64,000 nucleotides of DNA from positions 391,773 to 455,772 of the forward strand of contig NZ_VLKC01000001.1 of NCBI RefSeq assembly GCF_007830295.1, in the 5' to 3' direction. This document shows, in pieces, positions 1 through 13,154 of this stretch; position 1 is the stretch's first letter; each line of letters begins with the position of its first letter. The notes beneath the pieces are model-generated. The model saw only the letters and a list, made by a program, of their open reading frames with translations. It was not told the origin of the DNA and made no database searches. The DNA comes from Sporomusa sp. KB1 (GTDB lineage: Bacteria > Bacillota > Negativicutes > Sporomusales > Sporomusaceae). The translations under genes and the position numbers were made by a program.

Positions 1-1204
1 TAGGTGTGATGATGTCATAATACTCGACCTTGTCATCTTTAATCTGAGCACTATGGAGCAATGGACCCCGCATGGCATCTGTTACAGCAATGGCCTGATT
101 GCTAACCAATTCCTTTTTCTGCTTAATTGGTGGTTCACCGGGTTCAAGTTCGGTGAGCCATTTTTCTACCAGATCTGCTATTAGCTCTGTTTCTAATGAT
201 CGAGCCGCAATTCGATCCATAGTAGATGTCCCGCCTGCATAAAAGTTATTAAATATCATGCGCGCCAGGGGGCCTCCTTCGTAAGGTTTGCCATTATAAA
301 GTACCGCTTTTGTCCAGGAATAAGCCTCTGGTTTGTAGGGGGCAGGACAAACTTCGGGATTAATTAGGGATTGAGAACGTTCGTACCATGAATGGGTTAT
401 GTCTTCTTGGAGAAGATCTAGCTTCGGTTTAGAGTACTGATCATTAAAAACGCCGTCTTTCCATAGAAGCTGTTCATTTTTACTTCCAAACCGGAAAAGA
501 CCAAAAGATAGTAAACGTCCTGGCGTTTTGCCGATAGAAAAATAGTCCTCATAGCAGTGGGCAATTAGTTCAGTATCCGGCATCAGATAACGGCCAATAA
601 ACTTACGAATATCCCGGATTAACGTAAGTGCTTGATTAATTTTATCGGCGGTCGGGGCTACCGTTACGCCTCCATGGACAAAACTATGTTGATGAGGTAC
701 TTTTCCACCGAAGAGAGTCAACAATTGGTGACATTTTTCGGATATTTGTACTGCTTCAATATAATGAGAGGCTACACGACGATTATCTTCATTAGTTAAC
801 CGACAATCGTTACAGTTTTGTTCAAGAAACGGAGGACAGTTTGGCATGACAACGTAGTCCGGCAGACCAAAGAAATAAAAATGTCTGATATGATTCTGCA
901 GAAAATCGGCAGCTAACATGATATTCCTTACATACTGAGCGCTTTCTTGAATTTCATTATTATATAAAGCATCCAATAAGTAACTTGCGACGGCACCGTG
1001 AGCAGTTGAGCATATGCCACAAATGCGTTGTGTTAAATAGACAGCATCAGTAACATGATGTTCACGCATAATATATTCAAATCCGCGGAACATGGTACAG
1101 CTGACATCAGCTCCCCGAATCACTTTGTTGTCGACAGTTAATTCCACTGACAGCAATCCACTCAGGCGGGTGACTGGACTAAACAGGATTTTTTTGGGAC
1201 TCAT
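1..1204 (-). CDS. [NiFe] hydrogenase large subunit, 3' end outside window
   Basis: This is the N-terminal ~401 residues of a [NiFe] hydrogenase large subunit, which carries the Ni-Fe(CN)2CO site that oxidises or evolves H2. The start is the ATG at 1204-1202, preceded by AGGAG at good spacing; it overlaps the end of the small-subunit gene by 26 bp, so the two are translationally coupled. The L1 motif RICGICSTAHG near residue 63 supplies the first two nickel-binding cysteines. The C-terminal L2 motif (DPCxxCxxH) would lie past position 1, so the gene is cut by the window edge. Beyond L1 the chain reads through without a stop. Whether the complex is membrane-bound cannot be told, because any cytochrome b or maturation protease gene would be outside the window. 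Confidence 0.93.
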   Translation of the reverse strand, partial: MSPKKILFSPVTRLSGLLSVELTVDNKVIRGADVSCTMFRGFEYIMREHHVTDAVYLTQRICGICSTAHGAVASYLLDALYNNEIQESAQYVRNIMLAADFLQNHIRHFYFFGLPDYVVMPNCPPFLEQNCNDCRLTNEDNRRVASHYIEAVQISEKCHQLLTLFGGKVPHQHSFVHGGVTVAPTADKINQALTLIRDIRKFIGRYLMPDTELIAHCYEDYFSIGKTPGRLLSFGLFRFGSKNEQLLWKDGVFNDQYSKPKLDLLQEDITHSWYERSQSLINPEVCPAPYKPEAYSWTKAVLYNGKPYEGGPLARMIFNNFYAGGTSTMDRIAARSLETELIADLVEKWLTELEPGEPPIKQKKELVSNQAIAVTDAMRGPLLHSAQIKDDKVEYYDIITP

Positions 1205-2171
1205 TGGAATCTCCTTTCACTGTTGAATCCGATTTTAGCCCATTTGTTTGGGCATTTTTATTTTTTTGCGGTAGTGGCACAAAAAAAGGAGTGGAGCCGT
1301 CTGGGAAATCCTGATTGGTGCAGCCGATACAAGGTGTATTTGCTTTAACGGGCCAATTTACATGGTTGACCCATTGACGGTATGGGCAATCTGCGCCAGT
1401 TTTCGGTCCAACGCAACCTAAAGAAAACATACACTCGATATCGCCTAGTTTTTCAGCAAAATCTTTTGTATCAAAATAAGAACGACGTTGGCAATGCCGG
1501 TGAATCGTATTGCCGTAAAATAAAGAAGGGCGTCCTAGTGGATCAAGTTCCGGCATGCCATACATGAGTAAATGAGTCAGTGTACCCACAAACCAATCGG
1601 GATTAACGGGGCATCCGCTTACATTTATGACTTCTCGGGTTAATATTTTATTGACTCCAACCGAGCCAGTCAGGTTAGGTGCAGATGACGAGGCACCGCC
1701 GAAGCTTGCACAAGTTCCGAGGGCTATAACGTAGCCAGCCATATCTCCTAGAGTTGTAACTGCTTCCAAAGCCGTAATCACTCTTCTTTTTGTCCGGGCC
1801 ACTACGTTGTAAATGCCATTATCTTTAGTTGGAATAGCCCCTTCTACTACCAGGATAAAGTTTCCCTTGTATTTTTTAGCTGAGCCAAACAACAGTTCAA
1901 GAGCGTCCGTACCCTGGGAGGCCATAAAGGTATTACTATATAAGAGGTTAATCATATCGGTAAATACTTGTTGCAAATAAGGATAGGTAGTATTCATGAA
2001 GGCAATATTGTTGTCTCCGCTATCATTAGTTTCAAGCCATATTACCGGTAGTTTATTTTTACTTTGCTGTAATATATATTTGCGAGCAGCAGGTAAGATT
2101 TTTGCCGATAACTCATGATTAGCTATTGTTACGTTGTCTCGACAAAGTTGAATAAATTCATCCTTGTCCAT
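1179..2171 (-). CDS. [NiFe] hydrogenase small subunit, unusual proximal-cluster motif
   Basis: This is the electron-transfer subunit of the hydrogenase, with three Fe-S clusters expected. The medial and distal cluster ligands are present (an HRHC pair, a GC-GP motif near residue 260, and CIGC near the C-terminus), and so are the second pair of proximal ligands (GTCASFGG and SGCPVNP). The first proximal pair, normally CTGC after the conserved VIWL, reads D50-S-G-D53, so both expected cysteines are replaced. I chose the ATG at 2171 (MDKDEF) because GAGG precedes it at 6 nt; an in-frame TTG at 2183 is less likely. There is no hydrophobic Tat signal, unlike periplasmic uptake enzymes, so a cytoplasmic location is inferred. 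The last ~25 residues are a polar, low-complexity tail overlapping the large-subunit gene. Confidence 0.9.
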   Translation of the reverse strand: MDKDEFIQLCRDNVTIANHELSAKILPAARKYILQQSKNKLPVIWLETNDSGDNNIAFMNTTYPYLQQVFTDMINLLYSNTFMASQGTDALELLFGSAKKYKGNFILVVEGAIPTKDNGIYNVVARTKRRVITALEAVTTLGDMAGYVIALGTCASFGGASSSAPNLTGSVGVNKILTREVINVSGCPVNPDWFVGTLTHLLMYGMPELDPLGRPSLFYGNTIHRHCQRRSYFDTKDFAEKLGDIECMFSLGCVGPKTGADCPYRQWVNHVNWPVKANTPCIGCTNQDFPDGSTPFFVPLPQKNKNAQTNGLKSDSTVKGDSNESQKNPV

Positions 2172-2251
2172 ATTACGCCTCAATTCAAGTTTTTAACATG
2201 ATATGCAAAGAATTTTATAGTGATTACTAAAACACTAAGTATATAAAATAA

Positions 2252-3989: not shown

Positions 3990-4040
3990 AGGCCAAAGAA
4001 AGCTATTTTACACAACTCTCTTTGGCCTCTAGTTTTTCTA
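3990..4040. terminator. Bidirectional hairpin terminator at the end of the sulfonate operon
   Basis: An inverted repeat AGGCCAAAGA ... TCTTTGGCCT (3990-3999 and 4019-4028) lies ~65 bp past the stop of the binding-protein gene. On the plus strand it is followed by CTAGTTTTTCTAATCAG, a tail that recurs at two sites near 11.95 and 12.0 kb. Confidence 0.7.
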
Positions 4041-4102
4041 ATCAGCCTATTACTATGTAAATACTAATAAAAATCTCACCTTCTCAAAGAGAGCATATTA
4101 TC

Positions 4103-5107
4103 TTATTGAATTCCTGCCGCCTTTAAATACTGATCATCCACAAAATCCTTCACATTTACGTCATTGCGAATTAATTTGTTTTCTTTCAAAAATACCGCGG
4201 TTTCCGCAATCGACTTAACAGCCTCATCGGTCAGGCGCAGATCAAAAATTACGTTTTCAAAGCCTGGCCTTAATACCTCAGGCTTAAACCCAGAATTTTT
4301 GGCAATAATCTCTAACGCTTTGTCTGGATTGGCTTTAATCCACTTCTCAGCCCGATCCAACACTTTTAGCAATCGTACCGTGATGTCTGGATATTTGCTT
4401 AAAAACTCACTGCGACCGACAATTACATTAATATTTTCTTTATATCCCGTAGCATCCGTAACAAGTTTACCGGCTCCCGACGCTACAACATTGGACAGAG
4501 TAGGTTCCCAAATAACTGCCGCATCAATATGATTAGATGCAATCGAGGATAAAATATCTGACGACGCCAGATTTACTTGCTGAATATCATTCGGCTTTAG
4601 CCCAGCCGACTTCAGATAAATATATAGCAACTGATGGGAAACAGAACCTACCACAAAACCAACCTTTTTTCCTTTTAAATCTGCAGGTGAATTAATGTTT
4701 GCACCGTTCGCAGCTATTAATCCGGTTATTTTTGTCCCATTGCTATAAACGCCAATGGCCTTAACATCAACATTATTGGATTTAAGCTGAATAGCCGGTT
4801 GATCGCCAACTTGCCCAAAGTCAATGCGGTTGCCAGCAAATGCTTCATTCATAGCCGGACCGGAAGCGAATTTTTCCAGTTCAAAAGTAATCTCGTCTTT
4901 TTCAAACTCTTCTTTAAGCCAGCCCATTTCCCTCGCAACTACGATCTGAACATGCCCCGGCTGATAGCCATAATGAACGGTTAGCGGAGTTTTCGCCACA
5001 GGTTTTTCTGCTTTCTCGGTTGCTGTCTTACCACCGCAGCCAGACAACGCTACCGCGAAAAAAACTATCATGCATGCCAATACAATATTGCGTAAAAATT
5101 TTTTCAT
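4103..5107 (-). CDS. Sulfonate/taurine ABC transporter substrate-binding lipoprotein
   Basis: This is a solute-binding protein of the SsuA/TauA (NMT1-like) family that would capture an organosulfonate outside the membrane. Residues 1-24 form a lipoprotein signal ending in the lipobox LSGC. The mature part has the family features TVHYGYQPGHVQIVVAREMG and a GVGDQPA-like loop (GQVGDQPA). At 334 aa it has normal length. The ATG follows GGGAG at 8 nt. It is the last gene of the operon, 42 bp after the amidohydrolase, and no permease or ATPase gene accompanies it, so it must use a transporter encoded elsewhere or share one. The match to sulfonates is inferred from family and context; alkanesulfonate, taurine, isethionate or a taurine conjugate all fit. 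Confidence 0.85.
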   Translation of the reverse strand: MKKFLRNIVLACMIVFFAVALSGCGGKTATEKAEKPVAKTPLTVHYGYQPGHVQIVVAREMGWLKEEFEKDEITFELEKFASGPAMNEAFAGNRIDFGQVGDQPAIQLKSNNVDVKAIGVYSNGTKITGLIAANGANINSPADLKGKKVGFVVGSVSHQLLYIYLKSAGLKPNDIQQVNLASSDILSSIASNHIDAAVIWEPTLSNVVASGAGKLVTDATGYKENINVIVGRSEFLSKYPDITVRLLKVLDRAEKWIKANPDKALEIIAKNSGFKPEVLRPGFENVIFDLRLTDEAVKSIAETAVFLKENKLIRNDVNVKDFVDDQYLKAAGIQ

Positions 5108-5149
5108 TATACCATCTCCCTGAAATTAAATATATAGTTTGCTAAAGAT

Positions 5150-6763
5150 CTACTCTGTATAGATACTCTGTCCCTCAACAATAGTTTCCAACACTCGGAT
5201 ATCCTTCAATTCCACTCTGCCAGATAGCGGATTGTCTGATAAAATAACTAAATCGGCAAATTTACCCGGTTCAATCGAACCCCTGGTTGTCTCAGTGAAA
5301 CTTTGCCATGCAGCATGTATGGTCAGTGCCTTCAAGGCGTCTAATGGTGTAATCCTTTGCTTTTCACCAATGATTTGCCCGCTCGCCGTTTGGCGCTGTA
5401 CGGCTGACCATGCTAAAAACAGCGGATTTATGGGCACCACCGGCGTATCGGAATGAATGGTAAAGCGCATATCCCTGATAACGGCTGAATGCGCCGGATT
5501 CATGCGAAAAGCGCGTTCAGGCCCTACAAAGATTGCCGCATGACGATCACCCCAATAATACGTATGCAGACTAAAAAAAGAGGGTATTATTCCCAATTGT
5601 TTCATCCGGTCTAACTGGTCTTCTCTTACCGTCTGCGCATGCACGATAACGTGACGCGTATTTTGACGGGAATATTTTTGTTGTGCCCCAGCAAACGCAT
5701 CCAATGCAGCATCAATGGCGGCATCGCCATTACAATGAACCGCCACCTGCCAGCCTTCGCAGTGGAGTTTTTCAATCTGCCCAAACAGATCATCCCGTTT
5801 GATTGCTGGCCAGCCGCTATAATCGGTTGGCAAATCATGCGGAATGACATAATAGGGCTTACTCAAATAGGCTGTATAAATTTGAATGGAACCATCGAAA
5901 AATAATTTGCCCGAAGTTAGAGAGAGTCTGTCCGGATCAACTCCTTTCAGTATATTCTGTTGCTGTATCTCATCGAGAATGTGCGGGCATGCCCAAACAA
6001 TAACCCTTAGCGGCAGTTCTTTTTGCTTTATGGCTGTTTTTAAATTACCCAGAAAATCAATATCAGACAGATAGCCTACCTGTGTAGTCGTGATTCCTCG
6101 TGCCGCATACTCCACCGCCGCTTGCTGAATGGCTGACAGCTGCTGGCTATGTGTAAGTGCTAACGCCTCAGCAATATATTGAAATCCTGTTTCTACAAAA
6201 AGCCCCGTCGGCTCATTAGTAAGGGCATCACGTTCAATATATCCACTCTGCGGAACACCTGCCTCTCTATTAATACCCAGCCTCTTCAGCGCCGCTGAAT
6301 TTACCACAAAGCGGTGCATGGAGCAATGAATTGCTGCAACTGGATGATCTGTTGAAACTTTATCTAAATCCAGGCGATTGGGATGTCTGTTTTCTGCGAG
6401 CAGCGTATCGTCATAGCCAACACCCACAATCCATTCCCCTACTGGGGTTTGCTTTGCTTTTTCCTGCAGGCGCAAAATTACTGCAGCCATGTTGCTTGTA
6501 GTTCCAATCGGCGGGCTAGCTAAATCTACACGATATAAGGAATTTGCACCTGACATAGGAAAATGGCTGTGCGCATCAATAAAGCCTGGCAGCATGGTTT
6601 TGCCGTCCAAATCAATAATTTGCGTCCCTGCCGTACGCAGGTACAAAATATCCTTTTCCGAACCTATGGCTTGAATGCGTCCGCCACTAATAGCTACAGC
6701 CTCGGCGATCATATCGCTGCCATCCATGGTAATAATCGTGCCATTTATATAGATCGTGTCCAT
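5150..6763 (-). CDS. YtcJ-like amidohydrolase
   Basis: This is a metal-dependent hydrolase of the amidohydrolase superfamily (YtcJ / N-substituted formamide deformylase-like group). The N-terminal TIYINGTIITMDG strand, GGRIQAIG, and PGFIDAHSHFP with its HxH metal ligands are followed by further metal-site regions (VAVHCNGDAAID, VHAQTV, IHSDTPV). The start is the ATG at 6763, preceded by AGGAG; a longer TTG start at 6787 is unlikely. It follows islA by 35 bp. Members cleave amide or related C-N bonds, so in this operon it may release taurine or an amine from a conjugate, but the substrate is unknown. Confidence 0.85.
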   Translation of the reverse strand: MDTIYINGTIITMDGSDMIAEAVAISGGRIQAIGSEKDILYLRTAGTQIIDLDGKTMLPGFIDAHSHFPMSGANSLYRVDLASPPIGTTSNMAAVILRLQEKAKQTPVGEWIVGVGYDDTLLAENRHPNRLDLDKVSTDHPVAAIHCSMHRFVVNSAALKRLGINREAGVPQSGYIERDALTNEPTGLFVETGFQYIAEALALTHSQQLSAIQQAAVEYAARGITTTQVGYLSDIDFLGNLKTAIKQKELPLRVIVWACPHILDEIQQQNILKGVDPDRLSLTSGKLFFDGSIQIYTAYLSKPYYVIPHDLPTDYSGWPAIKRDDLFGQIEKLHCEGWQVAVHCNGDAAIDAALDAFAGAQQKYSRQNTRHVIVHAQTVREDQLDRMKQLGIIPSFFSLHTYYWGDRHAAIFVGPERAFRMNPAHSAVIRDMRFTIHSDTPVVPINPLFLAWSAVQRQTASGQIIGEKQRITPLDALKALTIHAAWQSFTETTRGSIEPGKFADLVILSDNPLSGRVELKDIRVLETIVEGQSIYTE

Positions 6764-6798
6764 CTCATATCTAGCTCCTTTTATCAACTCATACCTGC

Positions 6799-9267
6799 CT
6801 ACCAGCCCGTATGTTCCGTTCTGGAAATTAAGTCATCCTGTAAATCTGCCGACAAATCAACAAAGTAAGCACTGTAACCAGCAATTCTCACAATAAGGCT
6901 ACGATATTTTTCTGGATCTTTTTTAGCTTCGAGCAAAGTTTGCCGATTAATAACATTAAACTGAACATGCCACAAACGCAAATCACACCAAGTTCTAATG
7001 AAGGATACCAGCTTTTCTGTGCCTTTTTCGCCCGCCACCACCGACGGACTCAGCTTTACATTGAGAAGCCGCGACGCCCGTTCCCGATAATCTGGATTTT
7101 TTGAGGCATAGTTAGAAAGCAGCACTGCGGTTGGCCCTTTACTGTCCGCCCCTTGCGAGGCCGATGAACCATCAGACAGTGGCGTATATTCCTTTCGGCC
7201 ATCCGGCGTAGCGCTCACTACCTTGCCAAACGGCACATGAGAAGTAAACGGCACTAAGCGAAGATCGAGATGAACTCCTAATTCTTTAGAATATTTACGA
7301 GTAAATTCCAAGCATTCCTTATCCAGCTGCTTAGCGATAGAATCCGCATACTCATTGTTATTGCCGTACTTAGGAGCATGCAATAGGAGCTGTCTGGTAA
7401 ATTCATGCCCTTCAAAGTTCGTTTCTAGCGCAGTTATTAATTCCGGGATACTCAGGCGTTTTTCTTCATATACCAATTTTTTAATAGCTGCCAGAGAATC
7501 CACTACCGTAGCATATCCCATAAATTCAAAATACCCTAAGTCGATGCCACCCTCAATGCGCGATTCGTGAATATCTTTATACTCTTTCATGCAAAGATCA
7601 TGCAGCGCGGAACCTAATGGCCAAGCAAAATGCTGCGGACGAAGCCGGATAATGACATGCTGCTGAATAAAGGCCTGTTTCAAAAAGTTGATGTGCTGCT
7701 TAACATACGCCTGCCAAAAAGTTTCCCAATCCTGCCATGCTGCTGGATCACCCAACGCCAACCCAATTTGCTCATTACCGTATTTTCTCATTTTGCCATT
7801 ATGCAGTGTCATTTCTAATGCTGCCGGGAAATTGATATATGCGCAGGGACTCGTATACGTATCACGGTTTGGCATCCTCGCTTCCGAACAACCAGATACC
7901 GCATAGTCATAGGCTTCCGCAAACGTTGCGCCTTTTGACAATAATAAGGGCACCACTTCTTCATCATTGATCAGTTTAGGAAAGCCCGAGCCTTCCTTAA
8001 TTGTTTCCGCCACTTCATAGAGATAGCGTTGCGGTGAACGCGTATGAATTCTTGCCGCTAAATCCGGATAGTGCAAAGGAAATTCCCGCTTGGATTGTAA
8101 AAAGAGATATGTCAGAGTGTTGGTGGCATCTTGTCCGCCAGGCGTTTGTCCCCCAATGGTCACTGCCTCCCAATGAGCATAACCTTCATTAAATGACCCG
8201 CCGGTGGGAGAAATATATAAATCAATAAACTGCGCCATAGCCAACCACATGCATTCTAAGAGTTCAAGTACCTTTTCCTCAGTAAGTACGCCGACTTCCA
8301 TATCCCTTTGATAATACGAATACAAATACTGATCCATTCGACCATTAGAAATAATCGTGCCCGTTTTTTGTTCCATGCGGGAAAACATTTGCGTAAACCA
8401 TTGGGATTGCATCGCTTCCCGGAAATTACGCGCCGGATTTTCCGGCACCCATTCGCACACTTCAGCAATTTCTAATAATTCCTGCCTACGCACAGGGTTT
8501 TGTTCCGAGTTCGCCAGTTGGCGCGCCAGTGCCGCATGGCGCTTCGCCCAGAGTATAATTGCTTCCGATGCCAAAACAACTGATTGCAGAAAAGGAGCTT
8601 TCTCCAAAGAATCTCGTGCGCTAAGAGGGTCCAGTCGCGATAATTCTTCTTCCGCTTCCTCTTTAATTTTCTTAAATCCCTTTTTGAGTACTTTTTCATA
8701 ATCATGTACCCACTGGATGGAGGAGCGAAATGAAGCGGTCTCATTGACGATAAATCGAGATTCCAGTACATTGTCGGGATTATAAGTATATTTGAGAGTT
8801 TCCTTTGGTAACGCTTGAACCAAGTGTTCATGAAAGGTCTTACCTCGCCAATATGGTGCGATTTCATTAACCACAATCTGCACATCTTCAGGTGCAATAT
8901 TGAACGGTGCGCCGACCCGTTTAGGAAGTTCTGCTAAGCCAATATCTAAAAAATCGCCATCTAATTCTGGATATAAAATACCATAGCGCCCAATGCCGCC
9001 GCTCCGTCCTACCAGCAATTGATGCTCATCAATATAGACGGTAATGTGTTCTGCAATGTGTTTCATGGCCTTCGCCCAGCGTAAAATAAGCGGCTCCCCC
9101 TCGGTTTGCCGAAAAGACTCCGTAAAATAACGAGCCCTTTCTACGTCAATTACCGGACGTAAATTTTTAAAGCCTTCTAAAATAGCATTCGTTCTCGGAC
9201 GATGCTGCGCCGCTTTTCCGGCGATTTCCTGCTGAATGCGTTCTTCTTGCGGTGATAATACTACCAT
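6799..9267 (-). CDS. islA: Isethionate sulfite-lyase (glycyl-radical enzyme)
   Basis: This 822-residue glycyl-radical enzyme is predicted to cleave the C-S bond of isethionate, giving acetaldehyde and sulfite. The radical site is [10 protein letters not shown] (G797) and the thiyl site is SGCSEA (C460, E462). Relative to what I recall of Bilophila wadsworthia IslA (R189, Q193, W374, C468, E470, R678, G805), the equivalents R181, Q185, W366, C460, E462, R670 and G797 are all present at a constant offset of 8, which argues against choline, glycerol or propanediol lyases. The start follows AGGAGG. It lies between an M20 peptidase and an amidohydrolase, downstream of a taurine aminotransferase. 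No intact activating enzyme is next to it; only a remnant exists at 12.9-13.15 kb. Sulfite could serve as an electron sink. Confidence 0.88.
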
Positions 9268-9300
9268 AAAAATTCCTCCTCTAAGTTGTTGCTATATCTG

Positions 9301-10482
9301 CTAAATACACTCCTGTAGACCAAGTTCCATTAATAAGCGCGTCAAAAGATACAACCGGGGAACTATTGATTTTACATCTGCGCCTTCCTGAACCGTATGG
9401 TTCTGTCCATTACTGACGGGACCCACACTGCATAATGTTGCTTCATTAACAGCTGCCGCCCATCCGGCATCTGTCGCGGCAGCACCGCTGGCGAGCGTAA
9501 GCGTAAGCCCAATTTCTTGATAAACCTGTTGGGCTAATCCGGCCAGTTTTAGGTTCTTTGCCGATTGTACAAAAGGCGGGAAGGCCAACTGAAAGCTAGA
9601 TGTCACTTGCGTGCCGGAAATTTGCGTTTTCTGAGCTAATGCCCATGCGGCTTGTTCTACACGATCCATTTCTTCAGGACTATGCGCATACACACGCATA
9701 ACTGCTCTAGCTTGATCAGGCACCACGTTCTTTTCGACGTTATCCATTCCCGCTTCCAAAATGCGTGTAGTAATAATGGTACCGGCTTCTTGATTTGCTA
9801 ATTGATTCAGGTGCAATACCTGATATGCTAACTCATCTGCTGCGTTGTATCCTTGCCACGGATAGGCCGCATGAGCCGTCCGCCCTTTTACCTCCGTTAC
9901 TAAATTACCGCTGCCCACACGCTTTGTGCAAATTCCATCACCTGGCAGACCCGCTTCAGCGCACAATACACAATCATGCTCGCGCGCCAGTTTCATGATT
10001 AGTTCCCTAGTTTCATGTGAACCATTTTCCTCTTGACAGTTGGCTAGTAGGGTGATTTTTTTATACGCTGTATATCCTAGATTCCGCAAAATTTCCAACG
10101 CATGCAAACATTGCACAATGCCTGCTTTATCATCCGAAACACCCGGACCATGAGCTATCCCTTCGTCATCAATATGGAACGGTCTCTCTACGGCGGCCCC
10201 TACTGGAAATACCGTATCCATATGTACTAAAAGCAGTATGCTGCCCCCTCCATTTCCTTCAATCGTTCCCACCACATTGTAGCCGTCCTGTCCATCATTC
10301 ACAGGGTACGTAACCACTGTCGCACCCAGCCCAATCAGTTTATTTACTATAAAATCGCCCATTTGCGCCAAGCCATCTTGGCAACACGTGGGTGAATCAA
10401 TCGCAACAAGGGCTTGCCAATCCTTAATAAATGAGACTTCCACCTGTTGACAAGCTGCTAAAACCTGTTCAGAATCTTTCAT
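9301..10482 (-). CDS. M20-family metallopeptidase (carboxypeptidase G2-like)
   Basis: This zinc-dependent amidohydrolase belongs to the M20 (CPG2/ArgE/DapE) family. Metal-site motifs are visible: LLLVHMDTVFP, GPGVSDDKAG (bridging Asp), NCQEENGS (general base Glu pair) and a C-terminal QNHTVQEGADV histidine. The dimerisation domain has GRTAHAAYPWQGYNA. I prefer the ATG at 10482 over the one at 10491 because AGGGG sits 9 nt before it. It lies 35 bp after the aminotransferase. Relatives remove an amino acid from N-acyl or peptide conjugates, so here it might release taurine from an N-acyl- or gamma-glutamyl-taurine. That role is inference; dipeptides are the main alternative. Confidence 0.85.
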   Translation of the reverse strand: MKDSEQVLAACQQVEVSFIKDWQALVAIDSPTCCQDGLAQMGDFIVNKLIGLGATVVTYPVNDGQDGYNVVGTIEGNGGGSILLLVHMDTVFPVGAAVERPFHIDDEGIAHGPGVSDDKAGIVQCLHALEILRNLGYTAYKKITLLANCQEENGSHETRELIMKLAREHDCVLCAEAGLPGDGICTKRVGSGNLVTEVKGRTAHAAYPWQGYNAADELAYQVLHLNQLANQEAGTIITTRILEAGMDNVEKNVVPDQARAVMRVYAHSPEEMDRVEQAAWALAQKTQISGTQVTSSFQLAFPPFVQSAKNLKLAGLAQQVYQEIGLTLTLASGAAATDAGWAAAVNEATLCSVGPVSNGQNHTVQEGADVKSIVPRLYLLTRLLMELGLQECI

Positions 10483-10517
10483 GTTATCCATCCCCTATTC
10501 TTGTCGCATTGCAGGTA

Positions 10518-11894
10518 TTACTTCATGCTCTCCAAGGCTTTCTGAATTGCAGCCGCAATGCGATCGGCCTCATTTTGCGTAAGAATAAGCGGCGGAGCCA
10601 TGGTCAGCACGTTATTGTGTCCCGGCACACTACGATTCATTTTCCCTATAAGTACTCCCTCTGCAGCGACTTTGCCAACCACTTCAGCCATATACGCCTC
10701 ACTGGCTGGAGTCTTAGATTGTTTGTCAGTTACCAGTTCTATACCGATAAATAGTCCTTTGCCACGAACATCTCCAATCATTGGCAAATCAGCAAACTCC
10801 CTTAGCCGATTTGCTAAATAGTTTCCAATACGAGCGCTATTTAAAATTAGTTCCTCTTCCTCAATGATCTTTATGTTTTCTAACGCTGCTGCGCAAGCGC
10901 CGGCGCTGCCGCCAAACGTACTGATGTCACGGAAATAATCCAAATGCTGTTGAGGTTCATGCTTAAACGCATTGAATAGTTCTTCGGTTGTTATAGTTGC
11001 TGATAGTGGCATATAAGAACTAGTAATACCTTTGGCCGTCGTGAGAATATCCGGTTTCACCTCCCAATGACTGTGACCAAAGGCTTTGCCTGTCCTGCCA
11101 AATCCAGTCACCACCTCATCCACAATTAGCAAAACCTCATACTTACGGCAGATCTCTTGAATCACGCTAAAATACTCATCGACGGGAATAATAATGCCCC
11201 CACCAGCAGTGATGGGTTCTAAGATCAACGCGCCAACACTATCCGGACCTTCTTTTCGAATGACGTCTTCTAAGGCGTGCGCGCACTCTAAATTGCAGCC
11301 AGGGTAATTCTTATTAAACGGACAACGATAGCAATATACAGGCGGAATACCAGCGAAACCAGGAACCAACGGTTCATATCCCTTTGTCCGCTCTCCCTGA
11401 CCCGTAGCGCTTAACGCACCCAGCGTTGTACCATGGTAATCCCGCTCACGATATAAAATCTTGTATTTATCCTGCTTAGGATGAACGAGACGATTATACT
11501 GCCGGGATATCTTAAAGGCCTTTTCATTCGCTTCTGAACCGCTGTTCGACAGATAAACCCGCTGAAAATGCGGCAGCAATTCAGTCAGTTTTTTAGCCAG
11601 TAAAATAGCCGGCGGATTCCCTGCACTACCAGCATAATAAGAAAGCTGCAGTAATTGTTTGTGAACGGCTTCAGCGATCGAACTCCGGCCATATCCTGCA
11701 TTGACACACCATACGCCACCGGCCAGAGCATCCAAATACTCTCTGCCATGAACATCCTTCACATAAGCACCATGCCCTTCCACCATAATGGGTGGTTCTT
11801 TACTTTCAAATGCTTTGTGCTGCGTAATATGGTGCCACAAACATTCCCTATCCATTTCAATAAGTTTTTCTGTGCTAACATTATATTCTCTCAT
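10518..11894 (-). CDS. tpa: Taurine:pyruvate aminotransferase (class III)
   Basis: This PLP enzyme of the class III (omega) aminotransferases is predicted to convert taurine and pyruvate to sulfoacetaldehyde and alanine. Recognisable features are LWHHITQHKAF at the N-terminus, YLDALAGGVWCVNAGYG, YLSNSGSEANEKAFK, YRERDYHGTTLGALS, the cofactor region LLIVDEVVTGFGRTG, TTAKGITSSYMPL with the Schiff-base lysine, and RDISTFGGSAG; this overall pattern is close to Bilophila Tpa as I recall it. The start is the ATG at 11894, 6 nt after AGGAGG; the 12 extra codons upstream run through a hairpin and are not expected to be coding. It is the first enzyme gene after the GntR regulator. The sulfoacetaldehyde reductase (SarD) needed to reach isethionate is not in the window. 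Confidence 0.85.
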   Translation of the reverse strand: MREYNVSTEKLIEMDRECLWHHITQHKAFESKEPPIMVEGHGAYVKDVHGREYLDALAGGVWCVNAGYGRSSIAEAVHKQLLQLSYYAGSAGNPPAILLAKKLTELLPHFQRVYLSNSGSEANEKAFKISRQYNRLVHPKQDKYKILYRERDYHGTTLGALSATGQGERTKGYEPLVPGFAGIPPVYCYRCPFNKNYPGCNLECAHALEDVIRKEGPDSVGALILEPITAGGGIIIPVDEYFSVIQEICRKYEVLLIVDEVVTGFGRTGKAFGHSHWEVKPDILTTAKGITSSYMPLSATITTEELFNAFKHEPQQHLDYFRDISTFGGSAGACAAALENIKIIEEEELILNSARIGNYLANRLREFADLPMIGDVRGKGLFIGIELVTDKQSKTPASEAYMAEVVGKVAAEGVLIGKMNRSVPGHNNVLTMAPPLILTQNEADRIAAAIQKALESMK

Positions 11895-11913
11895 AGTACA
11901 TCCTCCTAAAACT

Positions 11914-11950
11914 AAAAGGTCGGAAAGCAAGTTATGCTCTCCGACCTTTA
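11914..11950 (-). terminator. Hairpin in the tpa leader (terminator or attenuator)
   Basis: A 9-bp stem AAAGGTCGG / CCGACCTTT (11915-11923, 11941-11949) is followed on the minus strand by TTTTAGTTTT, then directly by the AGGAGG of tpa. It could terminate the gntR transcript or attenuate entry into the operon. The T-tract ends only ~6 nt before the ribosome-binding site, so it could also block translation. Confidence 0.6.
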
Positions 11951-12047
11951 GTTGTTTCTAATCAGTCGTATAGTGAGTTATGAGGCTGTTATGGCGCTAC
12001 AACCTTTAGTTTTTTTCTAATCAGTTATAACATGTTCGCAGCCACTG

Positions 12048-12779
12048 TCATCTTTTTCTCTTACGTGTTAGATTGATGCGAAATGAATACATATCCGCCC
12101 GATACAGACTTTTTTCATATTCCCACGGTTTACCTTCCAAATCAACCACCAAACGTTTAGAAAGTAATGCACAACTGGGTGCAGCCGACAAATTCAATAA
12201 CTTTTTTTCTTCTGCTGTAGGAATAATCGCCGTAATGGTTTGCTTAGCTTCCCATAACGTAATGCCTATCTCATTTTCCAAAATCTCATAGGTAGATGCA
12301 TTATTTAAGTCTACCTCAGCCAGTTTTTGCCCTATTTTCAAAGGATAATACTGCTTTTCCACTACGATCGGCACATCATTCGCTAGCCGCAGTCGATTCG
12401 TTTCATAAATCTCCTTAGTCCCAAATATAACAGCAACATCTTGCGGTGAAGGGACAATGCCTTGACTTAACAATCTAATGTTTGGTTTCATTCCCATATC
12501 CTGAACGATTTCAAAATACGTACTAAGATTCCCCAACCATTCTTCGATTGATCTCGCCGAAACGAAGGTACCGAGACCTTGCTTTGTTTCGAGCACTCCT
12601 TCCTCCGTCAGCGTACGAACAGCTCTCCTAATGGTTGCCCGGCTGACGCTAAACATTTCCATAAGTTCATATTCCGAGGGTATCTTCTCTGTATAAGTCC
12701 CTTTTAATATTTCATTGCGCAAAACATTTCTAACCTGCAAGTGCAGGGGCATTGCGTCCGTTTTATCTACAGTAAACAT
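12048..12779 (-). CDS. GntR/HutC-family regulator of the sulfonate operon
   Basis: This 243-residue regulator has an N-terminal GntR winged helix (PSEYELMEMFSVSRATIRRA, residues about 33-52) and a C-terminal UTRA ligand-binding domain of the HutC type (from about residue 85). The start follows AAAGGTGGG. It is the promoter-proximal gene of the sulfonate operon, 153 bp before tpa, with a hairpin between, so it most likely senses taurine, isethionate or a conjugate and controls the genes downstream and itself. Just upstream of its start are A+T-rich sequences with AAACGTTAACG, a possible operator. Confidence 0.88.
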   Translation of the reverse strand: MFTVDKTDAMPLHLQVRNVLRNEILKGTYTEKIPSEYELMEMFSVSRATIRRAVRTLTEEGVLETKQGLGTFVSARSIEEWLGNLSTYFEIVQDMGMKPNIRLLSQGIVPSPQDVAVIFGTKEIYETNRLRLANDVPIVVEKQYYPLKIGQKLAEVDLNNASTYEILENEIGITLWEAKQTITAIIPTAEEKKLLNLSAAPSCALLSKRLVVDLEGKPWEYEKSLYRADMYSFRINLTRKRKR

Positions 12780-12868
12780 TACCCACCTTTACGTTTATAA
12801 AAATTATCTACCAAACGTTAACGTAGTTATATTATACCATCATCAGGATGTCCGTACAAGTTGGTTTT

Positions 12869-13154
12869 TTATTTTTCCTCAACTGATTTTGCCAGCTGTC
12901 GCATGACAGATTCACTCAGCATTACGTTTCCCAAAGGATACTCTCGGCCTAGTGATTGGTACTTCGGCTGCCCCATACGATGATACGGCAAAAGTTCATA
13001 ACTAGCATTGGTGGTGGTGACTTTTGTAAGATTATCTAAACTAAGTCGGTTGTCTACCCCGGTATGCTGCTTATGCCGCAAGCCAATCAAGGCATTTTAT
13101 GTCATAAATGAGCGTGTCCAAATACTCACAGACTTTTTTTAAGTTTTCCCCGGG
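12869..13154 (-). pseudogene. Glycyl-radical enzyme activase remnant (probable former islB)
   Basis: Three segments of a radical-SAM glycyl-radical activase can be read. PGENLKKVCEYLDTLIYDIK (from 13154, the 'YDLKHMD' region) is followed, after a frame change near 13085, by HKQHTGVDNRLSLDNLTKV. A direct jump then leads to the C-terminal segment NASYELLPYHRMGQPKYQS ending at 12869. The N-terminal half, including the CxxxCxxC cluster motif, and the segment between TGVDN and YELLPYHR are missing. It sits just upstream of the islA operon on the same strand, so it was probably the dedicated IslA activase. It cannot be functional. Its 5' end abuts a DNA-glycosylase remnant, which marks a deletion junction. 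Confidence 0.8.

Follow-up and report, generated by a model that had tools for sequence, protein, structure and literature searches.

A Sporomusa operon that sets two amide hydrolases among taurine and isethionate genes and may scavenge bound taurine

Background

In Bilophila wadsworthia, taurine is taken to sulfite by Tpa, SarD and IslA/IslB (PMC6386719; PMC6453916), and a Bilophila islAB microcompartment locus includes one gene with predicted amidohydrolase function (PMC8667426). A 2026 preprint describes a Bilophila Amidohydro_3 enzyme, metalloBSH, whose substrates are taurine-conjugated bile salts and, to a lesser extent, other N-acyltaurines, but not glycine conjugates; for shorter amidohydrolases of the same strain, taurocholate activity was weak or not detectable (PMC13081902). 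In Ruegeria, naaS (N-acetyltaurine amidohydrolase; SPO0658), naaR, naaT and transporter genes are annotated, with tpa nearby (PMC4334477). In the papers cited here, bacteria with IslA were studied with free taurine or isethionate, and the sole conjugate route is secreted bile-salt hydrolysis in Bilophila. Among the abstracts and passages listed by our literature search, which had most subscription journals outside its reach, none describes a taurine-amide hydrolase inside an islA operon. The biochemistry of N-acetyltaurine use has reportedly been worked out in Cupriavidus. Here we describe a row of six genes in a 64,000-nucleotide stretch of the Sporomusa sp. KB1 genome (hereafter, “the window”), in which an M20 metallohydrolase and an Amidohydro_3 protein (“AH3”) stand among genes of the taurine and isethionate type.

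An earlier note on this DNA had proposed that the two hydrolases free taurine from an imported amide, and had placed such enzymes outside the known taurine operons. The latter statement has to be softened, given naaS (PMC4334477), the amidohydrolase gene of the Bilophila islAB locus (PMC8667426) and metalloBSH (PMC13081902). We computed gene content, the active-site residues of AH3 and of the IslA-type glycyl radical enzyme (GRE), gene linkage, an activase remnant and leader hairpins, and on balance we lean towards reading the row as a sulfonate-scavenging operon for bound taurine.

Results

The host genome (6.06 Mb) lies on two contigs, C1 and C2, and the window is C2:391773-455772. From 12779 down to 4103 on its minus strand, six genes follow one another: a GntR/UTRA regulator gene (gntR, 12048..12779; Pfam UTRA and GntR) whose product is a candidate taurine repressor; a gene of the taurine:pyruvate aminotransferase type (tpa, 10518..11894; Pfam Aminotran_3), which encodes 458 aa from a likely ATG at 11894 in an open reading frame (ORF) that opens at 11930; the carboxypeptidase-G2-like M20 gene (9301..10491; Pfam Peptidase_M20 and M20_dimer); an islA-type GRE gene for a predicted isethionate sulfite-lyase (6799..9267; Pfam PFL-like and Gly_radical); the gene for AH3, a candidate N-acyltaurine amidohydrolase (5150..6763; PF07969, 5.9e-103; likely ATG 6763, ORF opening at 6787); and a gene for an SsuA-type sulfonate-binding lipoprotein (4103..5107), a solute-binding protein (SBP) with a lipobox-like N-terminus by eye, 2x26 as its best PDB match and a TIGR01728 (SsuA) score of 222.5 bits, above the cut-off of 163.5. 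All six ORFs, called as ORFs and assigned to families via Pfam and NCBIfam, are intact and co-directional, in the order given by the earlier note. Between tpa and M20 there are 26 bp, between M20 and GRE 33 bp, between GRE and AH3 11 or 35 bp, and between AH3 and the SBP gene 42 bp. The longer gntR-tpa gap, of 117 or 153 bp, contains two hairpins.

The window aminotransferase is a class III enzyme orthologous to those of taurine clusters with ald, xsc or islA. It is 72% and 68% identical to the tpa products of two loci (L208 and L209; L and G numbers denote loci and genomes), 55% identical to an aminotransferase encoded 0.2 kb from xsc (L193) and 51% identical to one adjoining ald, with xsc 8 kb off (L191), and its prediction as a taurine:pyruvate aminotransferase is supported. 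A class search returned tpa matches at E 1e-140 in 13 of 380 genomes, and we inspected the surroundings in the 12 others (G025 and G048 via G626 and G625, which have identical match coordinates). Seven of the 12 combine gntR and tpa with an ATP-binding cassette (ABC) set whose SBP is related to the window's (L028, L197, L208, L209, L212, L214, L215); the row at L210 reads gntR-tpa-Fe-ADH-ald, and a PucR-type regulator gene precedes tpa in L189, L190, L211 and L213 (by Pfam for L190, by likeness of the N-terminus for the others). Where a GntR protein is encoded beside tpa, its identity to the window's is 57-73% in eight further loci of Negativicutes and 65-67% in four of Paenibacillaceae. In-frame stops in tpa of G006 and G035 were set aside as no real disruption; apparently they fall 5' of the actual start codon, because both ORFs are open over 460-462 aa.

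The closest tpa cluster is that of L208, also from Negativicutes, which reads gntR-tpa-ABC-ABC-islA-islB with a GRE of the IslA type. It resembles the window in its GntR (71%), Tpa (72%) and IslA-type enzyme (65%), in a leader hairpin and in an operator-like site, and differs in having transporter and activase genes and no hydrolases. In the window, the M20 gene takes the place of the ABC genes between tpa and islA, and AH3 and the SBP gene take the place of islB. In L208 and three Paenibacillaceae loci, the IslA-type GRE gene and tpa belong to the same cluster.

The best PDB matches of the window GRE are 5ymr, 7kq3 (whose entry is named isethionate sulfite-lyase) and 6lon; of these, 5ymr is presumably Desulfovibrio vulgaris IseG, and 6lon HpsG. 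The protein carries PFL-like and glycyl radical domains with the Cys/Glu/Gly-loop motifs VSGCSE and RIAGYSAY. Three positions split 5ymr and 7kq3 from 6lon (Ile192/Leu, Thr312/Ala, Phe682/Ile), and at positions 192, 312 and 682 the window enzyme has Ile, Thr and Phe (“I/T/F”), as in the IslA structures and not the Leu/Ala/Ile of 6lon. It also keeps all of the sulfonate-binding residues Arg189, Gln193 and Arg678 (B. wadsworthia numbering), which are among those described as binding isethionate (PMC8473560; PMC6453916). In 87 GRE rows from fetched loci, some of which are one gene in overlapping loci, the three positions read ITF in 53, LTF in 8 and LAV in 7, and the remaining 19 have I and T without a match to the third pattern. 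We rejected HpsG as the function of the window GRE, as the residues point to IslA; the earlier reading of the tpa and islA genes is supported by residues and conserved context.

In place of a cognate IslB gene, the vicinity of the window GRE holds a remnant: two C-terminal pieces of a GRE activase, with no open gene, at 12893..13148 on the minus strand. In tblastn against the full-length activase ORF on C1, they match residues 257-295 (61.5%, E 3.7e-11) and residues 177-197 (71%, E 2.6e-5). Their persistence suggests that an activase gene formerly stood upstream of gntR and was then lost. The C1 activase (L027:7642-8580) adjoins a second GRE gene (L027:8593-11073), and the same locus holds two ABC sets with SsuA-related SBPs and a FAD protein like fumarate-reductase flavoproteins. 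The C1 GRE paralog has Leu/Ala/Val at the three pocket positions, an exact fit to neither IslA nor 6lon.

We judged the linkage of AH3 by relatives of the window tpa, GRE and SBP genes, of the C1 activase and of xsc; the surroundings of L154 to L158 and L160 are left out of this judgement. An IslA scan of named genomes yielded 228 confirmed relatives. Among the best 80 of these loci, all five Paenibacillaceae genomes hold AH3 (G060, G061, G062, G063 and G643; 43-46% identity), each time in an ABC operon, and the adjoining SBP scores above the SsuA cut-off in all three cases tested (L148, L149, L168). Four of these five have tpa and gntR in the AH3 row; in G063, AH3 and tpa lie on separate contigs. 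The G060 row includes an alkanesulfonate monooxygenase gene and the G061 row a luciferase-type relative; the G062 row has neither. In two Ruminococcus metagenome-assembled genomes (MAGs), AH3 lies between SBP and permease genes (L087, L169), and the best match of both SBPs is SsuA, with scores under its cut-off. The AH3 row of L087 is convergent with a row of GRE, activase, AraC, FeADH and aminotransferase genes, the last 33% identical to the window's, and the row of L169 is followed by a homocysteine-synthase-like gene, plus a ThiF-like gene by eye. In G445, which belongs to the phylum of the window genome and consists of one contig, xsc (849 bits, cut-off 676) is found 1.6 kb from AH3, with a gene of the major facilitator superfamily (MFS) type between them and GntR beside xsc (L145:8575-14684).

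AH3 is restricted to the window genome among 11 tested from its genus and family (E 1e-60), and in a 148-genome sample of the G061 family, G061 is the sole holder of AH3 (E 1e-150) and of IslA (E 1e-250), which amounts to absence elsewhere and not to a tested correlation, because there is one positive only. A phylum sample of 398 genomes gave at least 13 AH3 matches at E 1e-90 in at least 8 genomes, the window genome included; these figures are a lower bound, with at most three candidates scored per genome. Six AH3 homologs in IslA-bearing Desulfobacterota are unlinked (L170, L171, L172 with two, L173, L174), some of them on short contigs. On an AH3 tree of 30 rows, from which the distant homologs L155, L156 and L157 and the duplicate L117 were dropped, four linkage changes are needed (three with the G445 AH3 labelled unlinked, four after xsc was detected near it), and at least two are forced by well-supported (starred) branches. 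On roseobacter plasmids, the rows L135:1614-10145 and L136:1587-10113 combine an AH3 homolog and an M81 family metallopeptidase with an ABC transporter composed like those for peptides, of one SBP with two permeases and two ATPases.

The Amidohydro_3 domain of AH3 has the two-metal ligands H73, H75, K294, H351, H383 and D447. For metalloBSH, docking modelled Ser194, His196, Gln381, Asn443 and His544 as sulfonate or catalytic residues (PMC13081902); their counterparts in AH3 would be S156, H158, Q302, N353 and H408, a mapping made by motif spacing without the BwBSH1 sequence. Most unlinked homologs have these residues too.

The M20 protein matches 6xj5 and 1cg2 best in the PDB and scores 332.7 bits against the NCBIfam model PRK06133 (carboxypeptidase G2-like), below its cut-off of 349. 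Matches at E 1e-60 occur in 8 of 59 other genomes of the relatives set, the best at 43% identity. Conservation of the window M20 was rejected, a linked ortholog being found neither in the relatives set nor in the phylum sample, and AH3 is the better supported of the two hydrolases as a taurine-operon partner. M20-family hydrolases of other types do occur in two other Negativicutes tpa clusters. One (L190:5997-11013), in an IslA-bearing MAG titled Sporomusaceae, reads PucR, YgeY-like M20, Fe-ADH, tpa; the other (L211:255-9974) has on one strand a DDAH/ADI-type hydrolase, an ABC set with an SsuA-type SBP, a carbamoylase-like M20, two PucR-like regulators and tpa, and is possibly a taurocyamine cluster. 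A post hoc density check counted eight M20-like matches in 2.23 Mb, five of them within 5 kb of tpa; three of these five had seeded the profile, and two stand outside any row with tpa, which leaves the clustering no more than suggestive. With other M20 types in tpa clusters, a taurine-freeing hydrolytic role for the window M20 is plausible.

A candidate GntR operator, TTGTACGGACATCCTGATG (12841..12859, minus strand), precedes a TATAAT-like box, and the pattern TTGTMCGGACATCCTGATG matches the window once at up to three mismatches, ahead of gntR (chance mean 0.01). Of 215 loci, 26 contain the form TTGTNCGGACA; 22 of these belong to gntR/tpa clusters, many as overlapping copies. Two copies of an attenuator-like hairpin lie ahead of tpa on the minus strand (12001..12026 and 11943..11967; 30.5 and 31.2 bits with our covariance model, R1), the second overlapped by a terminator-like hairpin (11915..11949; 15 pairs, 7 of them GC, then T-rich). 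A third copy (4024..4047, minus strand; 32.6 bits), followed by a terminator-like stem, lies 3' of the SBP gene; all three copies were in the training set of the model. The element is a covarying hairpin of 23-26 nt of the type GGCUGAUCAG-N-CUGAAGGCC. As a regular expression it has 28 distinct matches in 2.74 Mb of fetched DNA, a total that includes overlaps and is biased towards sulfonate loci, versus one in a mononucleotide shuffle. In an alignment of 24 distinct rows, 99.0% of cells pair, and in three of eight pairs both sides change. The covariation of 0.245 compares with a shuffled mean of 0.123 (0 of 500 shuffles reach it), and slid versions do not exceed 0.071. The counts of pairs with changes on both sides and of pair types stand out less, as 21 and 137 of 500 shuffles, respectively, match them.

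R1 found 39 distinct matches at E 0.5: from 46, six duplicates (three at L029 and one each at L148, L150 and L151) and L192 (E 0.17) were dropped, and L044 (E 0.12) was kept. The 36 outside the window lie in L023, L025, L026, L027, L028, L030, L037, L044, L061, L065, L066, L112, L115, L168, L196, L197, L208, L209, L212, L214 and L215. Thirty-three of the 39 precede tpa (14), GRE genes (8), ABC permease then ATPase genes (6), a small gene and an SBP gene (2), an MFS-like gene and a GRE gene (2) or a homocysteine synthase gene (1), and six precede other genes or none; of seven matches outside the training set, six precede genes of the kinds that make up the 33. In most matches a terminator stem shares sequence with the 3' arm, so that the hairpin could act as an antiterminator. 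Rfam has no match to it at gathering score (five sources) and none by E-value on the operon; on L112 and L115 the sole overlap is a sub-threshold one with psRNA14 (28.8 bits, gathering 60, E 0.5). An attenuator ahead of a sulfonate ABC operon is mentioned by Naville and Gautheret (2010; PMC2965389), and our hairpin may be the same element. Downstream of the operon, a NiFe hydrogenase small subunit gene occupies 1179-2183 (minus strand), with the probable large subunit gene next to it by eye.

Discussion

That two amide hydrolases replace the importer and activator genes of a relative suggests that the organism frees taurine from bound forms for sulfur, and we consider a sulfonate-scavenging operon for bound taurine somewhat the more probable account of this row. 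The support for a taurine conjugate as substrate is indirect and, for AH3, comes from linkage to sulfonate genes in four lineages and from the known taurine release by an Amidohydro_3 enzyme; for the M20 protein, which has no conserved linkage, it is weak. Judged from sequence, AH3 is likely to release taurine from bound forms.

By the gene context of relatives, sulfur scavenging appears a better description of the physiology than taurine fermentation. In relatives, islA, AH3 or the attenuator has genes of the sulfite-reductase-like, homocysteine-synthase or SsuD type close by or, for the attenuator, following it. Three congeners have an IslA ortholog: in L025 it is near a sulfite-reductase-like gene, in L023 near such a gene as well as ThiF and an enzyme of Cys/Met metabolism, and in L024 it has no such neighbor. 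On the strength of these islA neighbors, and of SsuD and binding proteins of the ABC type in the rows of Paenibacillaceae, we favor scavenging over fermentation or respiration.

From these data we infer substrates, a transport partner, activation in trans, a reductase, the fate of sulfite and the signals sensed by regulator and RNA, in the following route. The SsuA-type SBP, with ABC permease and ATPase components encoded elsewhere (e.g., in the two ABC sets near the C1 GRE), would import a taurine conjugate. AH3, as a cytoplasmic two-metal hydrolase, would cleave the amide to yield taurine, and the M20 enzyme would probably free taurine from another conjugate, e.g., a peptide-like or acyl one. 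Tpa would form sulfoacetaldehyde and alanine from taurine and pyruvate, and a reductase encoded elsewhere in the genome would convert the aldehyde to isethionate. With the C1 activase acting in trans, IslA would then cleave isethionate to acetaldehyde and sulfite, and the sulfite would enter sulfur assimilation. Induction would run via GntR and the leader attenuator.

Several observations weigh against this account. The row itself is without activase, sulfoacetaldehyde reductase, ABC permease or ATPase genes, and the window GRE would have to depend on the C1 activase. Eleven of the 12 other AH3 matches of the phylum sample (7 genomes) have no tested sulfonate gene in the stretch inspected. At E 1e-80, AH3 is found in five of 44 IslA genomes tested (an AH3-type match at the looser E 1e-30 is found in eight of 20, with G467 in both lists and G060 also among the five Paenibacillaceae); because most IslA genomes tested are without it, AH3 appears to be an optional, repeatedly added module. 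The presumed taurine-pocket residues are common to most unlinked AH3 homologs, and two of them are absent in the xsc-linked AH3 of G445, so that they mark a subfamily and not a substrate; we rejected them as proof of taurine specificity, and the argument for the AH3 substrate is carried by linkage. Nine other M20 matches (39-43%) lie in rows without sulfonate genes within the stretches inspected, four of which span only 4 kb, and none of 397 other phylum-sample genomes reaches E 1e-88 for M20. Finally, in NCBIfam the GRE scores best with NF048011, a model for HpsG (1519.8 bits against a cut-off of 1000). This score may not separate HpsG from IslA, because the 12 NCBIfam matches listed hold no separate IslA model. 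With HpsG as the automatic label, the islA assignment rests on active-site residues and PDB neighbors, and databases may carry a wrong name for this enzyme.

The strongest competing account, which we regard as unlikely yet serious, is a plain taurine/isethionate operon whose hydrolases are passengers, inserted upon loss of the ABC and activase genes and acting on sulfur-free substrates such as peptides, N-acyl amino acids or folate-like compounds. The resemblance of the M20 protein to carboxypeptidase G2 and its want of a linked ortholog would fit, as would the AH3 homologs with peptide-type ABC transporters and M81 genes on roseobacter plasmids and the rearranged state of the row, visible in the activase remnant. 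It does not readily explain why linkage between AH3 and sulfonate genes recurs in four lineages, or why the genes share one strand at gaps of 11-42 bp with AH3 directly between islA and the sulfonate-binding protein. We think it improbable that another bound sulfonate (e.g., a guanidino- or C3-sulfonate conjugate) is the substrate and that the GRE acts like HpsG on a C3 sulfonate. The HpsG score is in line with such a role, and the L211 tpa cluster offers a precedent in its DDAH/ADI-type hydrolase, SsuA SBP and carbamoylase-like M20; the I/T/F residues of the GRE, the C2 aldehyde that the tpa product in the row would yield from taurine and the clustering of IslA-type copies with tpa in L208 and three Paenibacillaceae loci all argue otherwise. 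That the operon is decaying or silent, with a GRE not activated for want of its own activase and genes that are remnants of a mobile row, we hold to be very improbable: the activase remnant upstream of gntR, the missing ABC permease and ATPase genes and the presence of the full set in the window genome only, among those searched, would suit decay, but six open genes of normal length, active-site residues kept in GRE and AH3, a kept operator and leader hairpins and a full-length activase ORF on C1 speak against it.

To return to bound-taurine scavenging, the earlier note would have counted an arrangement confined to this genome against its proposal, and this objection holds by half: the complete six-gene order was found in no other genome searched, but AH3 with tpa, gntR, islA and sulfonate transporters recurs elsewhere. 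This invites a broader and more tentative idea, possible in our view without being favored, namely that Bacillota have a modular regulon for bound taurine in which a conserved gntR-tpa core and repeatedly added amide hydrolases (Amidohydro_3, several M20 types and perhaps, for taurocyamine, a deiminase-carbamoylase pair) supply sulfur by passing taurine to IslA or Xsc, controlled by a GntR operator together with a small antiterminator RNA outside Rfam. If the bound-taurine account is true and the hydrolases free taurine inside the cell, taurine in acylated or peptide-bound form could become available to other anaerobes, and what metalloBSH shows for an enzyme secreted in the gut would extend to an operon enzyme of the cytoplasm. 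The pairing of AH3 with a sulfonate SBP would serve as a genome marker for finding conjugate users, and the proteins named here are directly testable enzymes for intracellular taurine release.

Among known systems, the Bilophila taurine pathway shares with the window its Tpa and IslA-type enzymes and, if our inference holds, isethionate as the cleaved intermediate. The window row differs in having no sarD, ald or islB and two added amide hydrolases, and its context suggests assimilation and not sulfite respiration; its SBP is of the ABC type, unlike the isethionate transporters described for Desulfovibrio, which are TRAP or MFS. The naa system resembles the window in pairing an amidohydrolase with a binding-protein transporter, and differs in a metallochaperone and a five-gene transporter that the window does not have. 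MetalloBSH of Bilophila and Taurinivorans (PMC13081902) shares with AH3 the Amidohydro_3 domain, the metal ligands and, if motif spacing is a guide, the modelled sulfonate-pocket residues, and would share with it the release of taurine from an amide. At 545 aa versus 945 aa, AH3 has no room for the C-terminal domain of metalloBSH, and its N-terminus has no signal peptide visible by eye.

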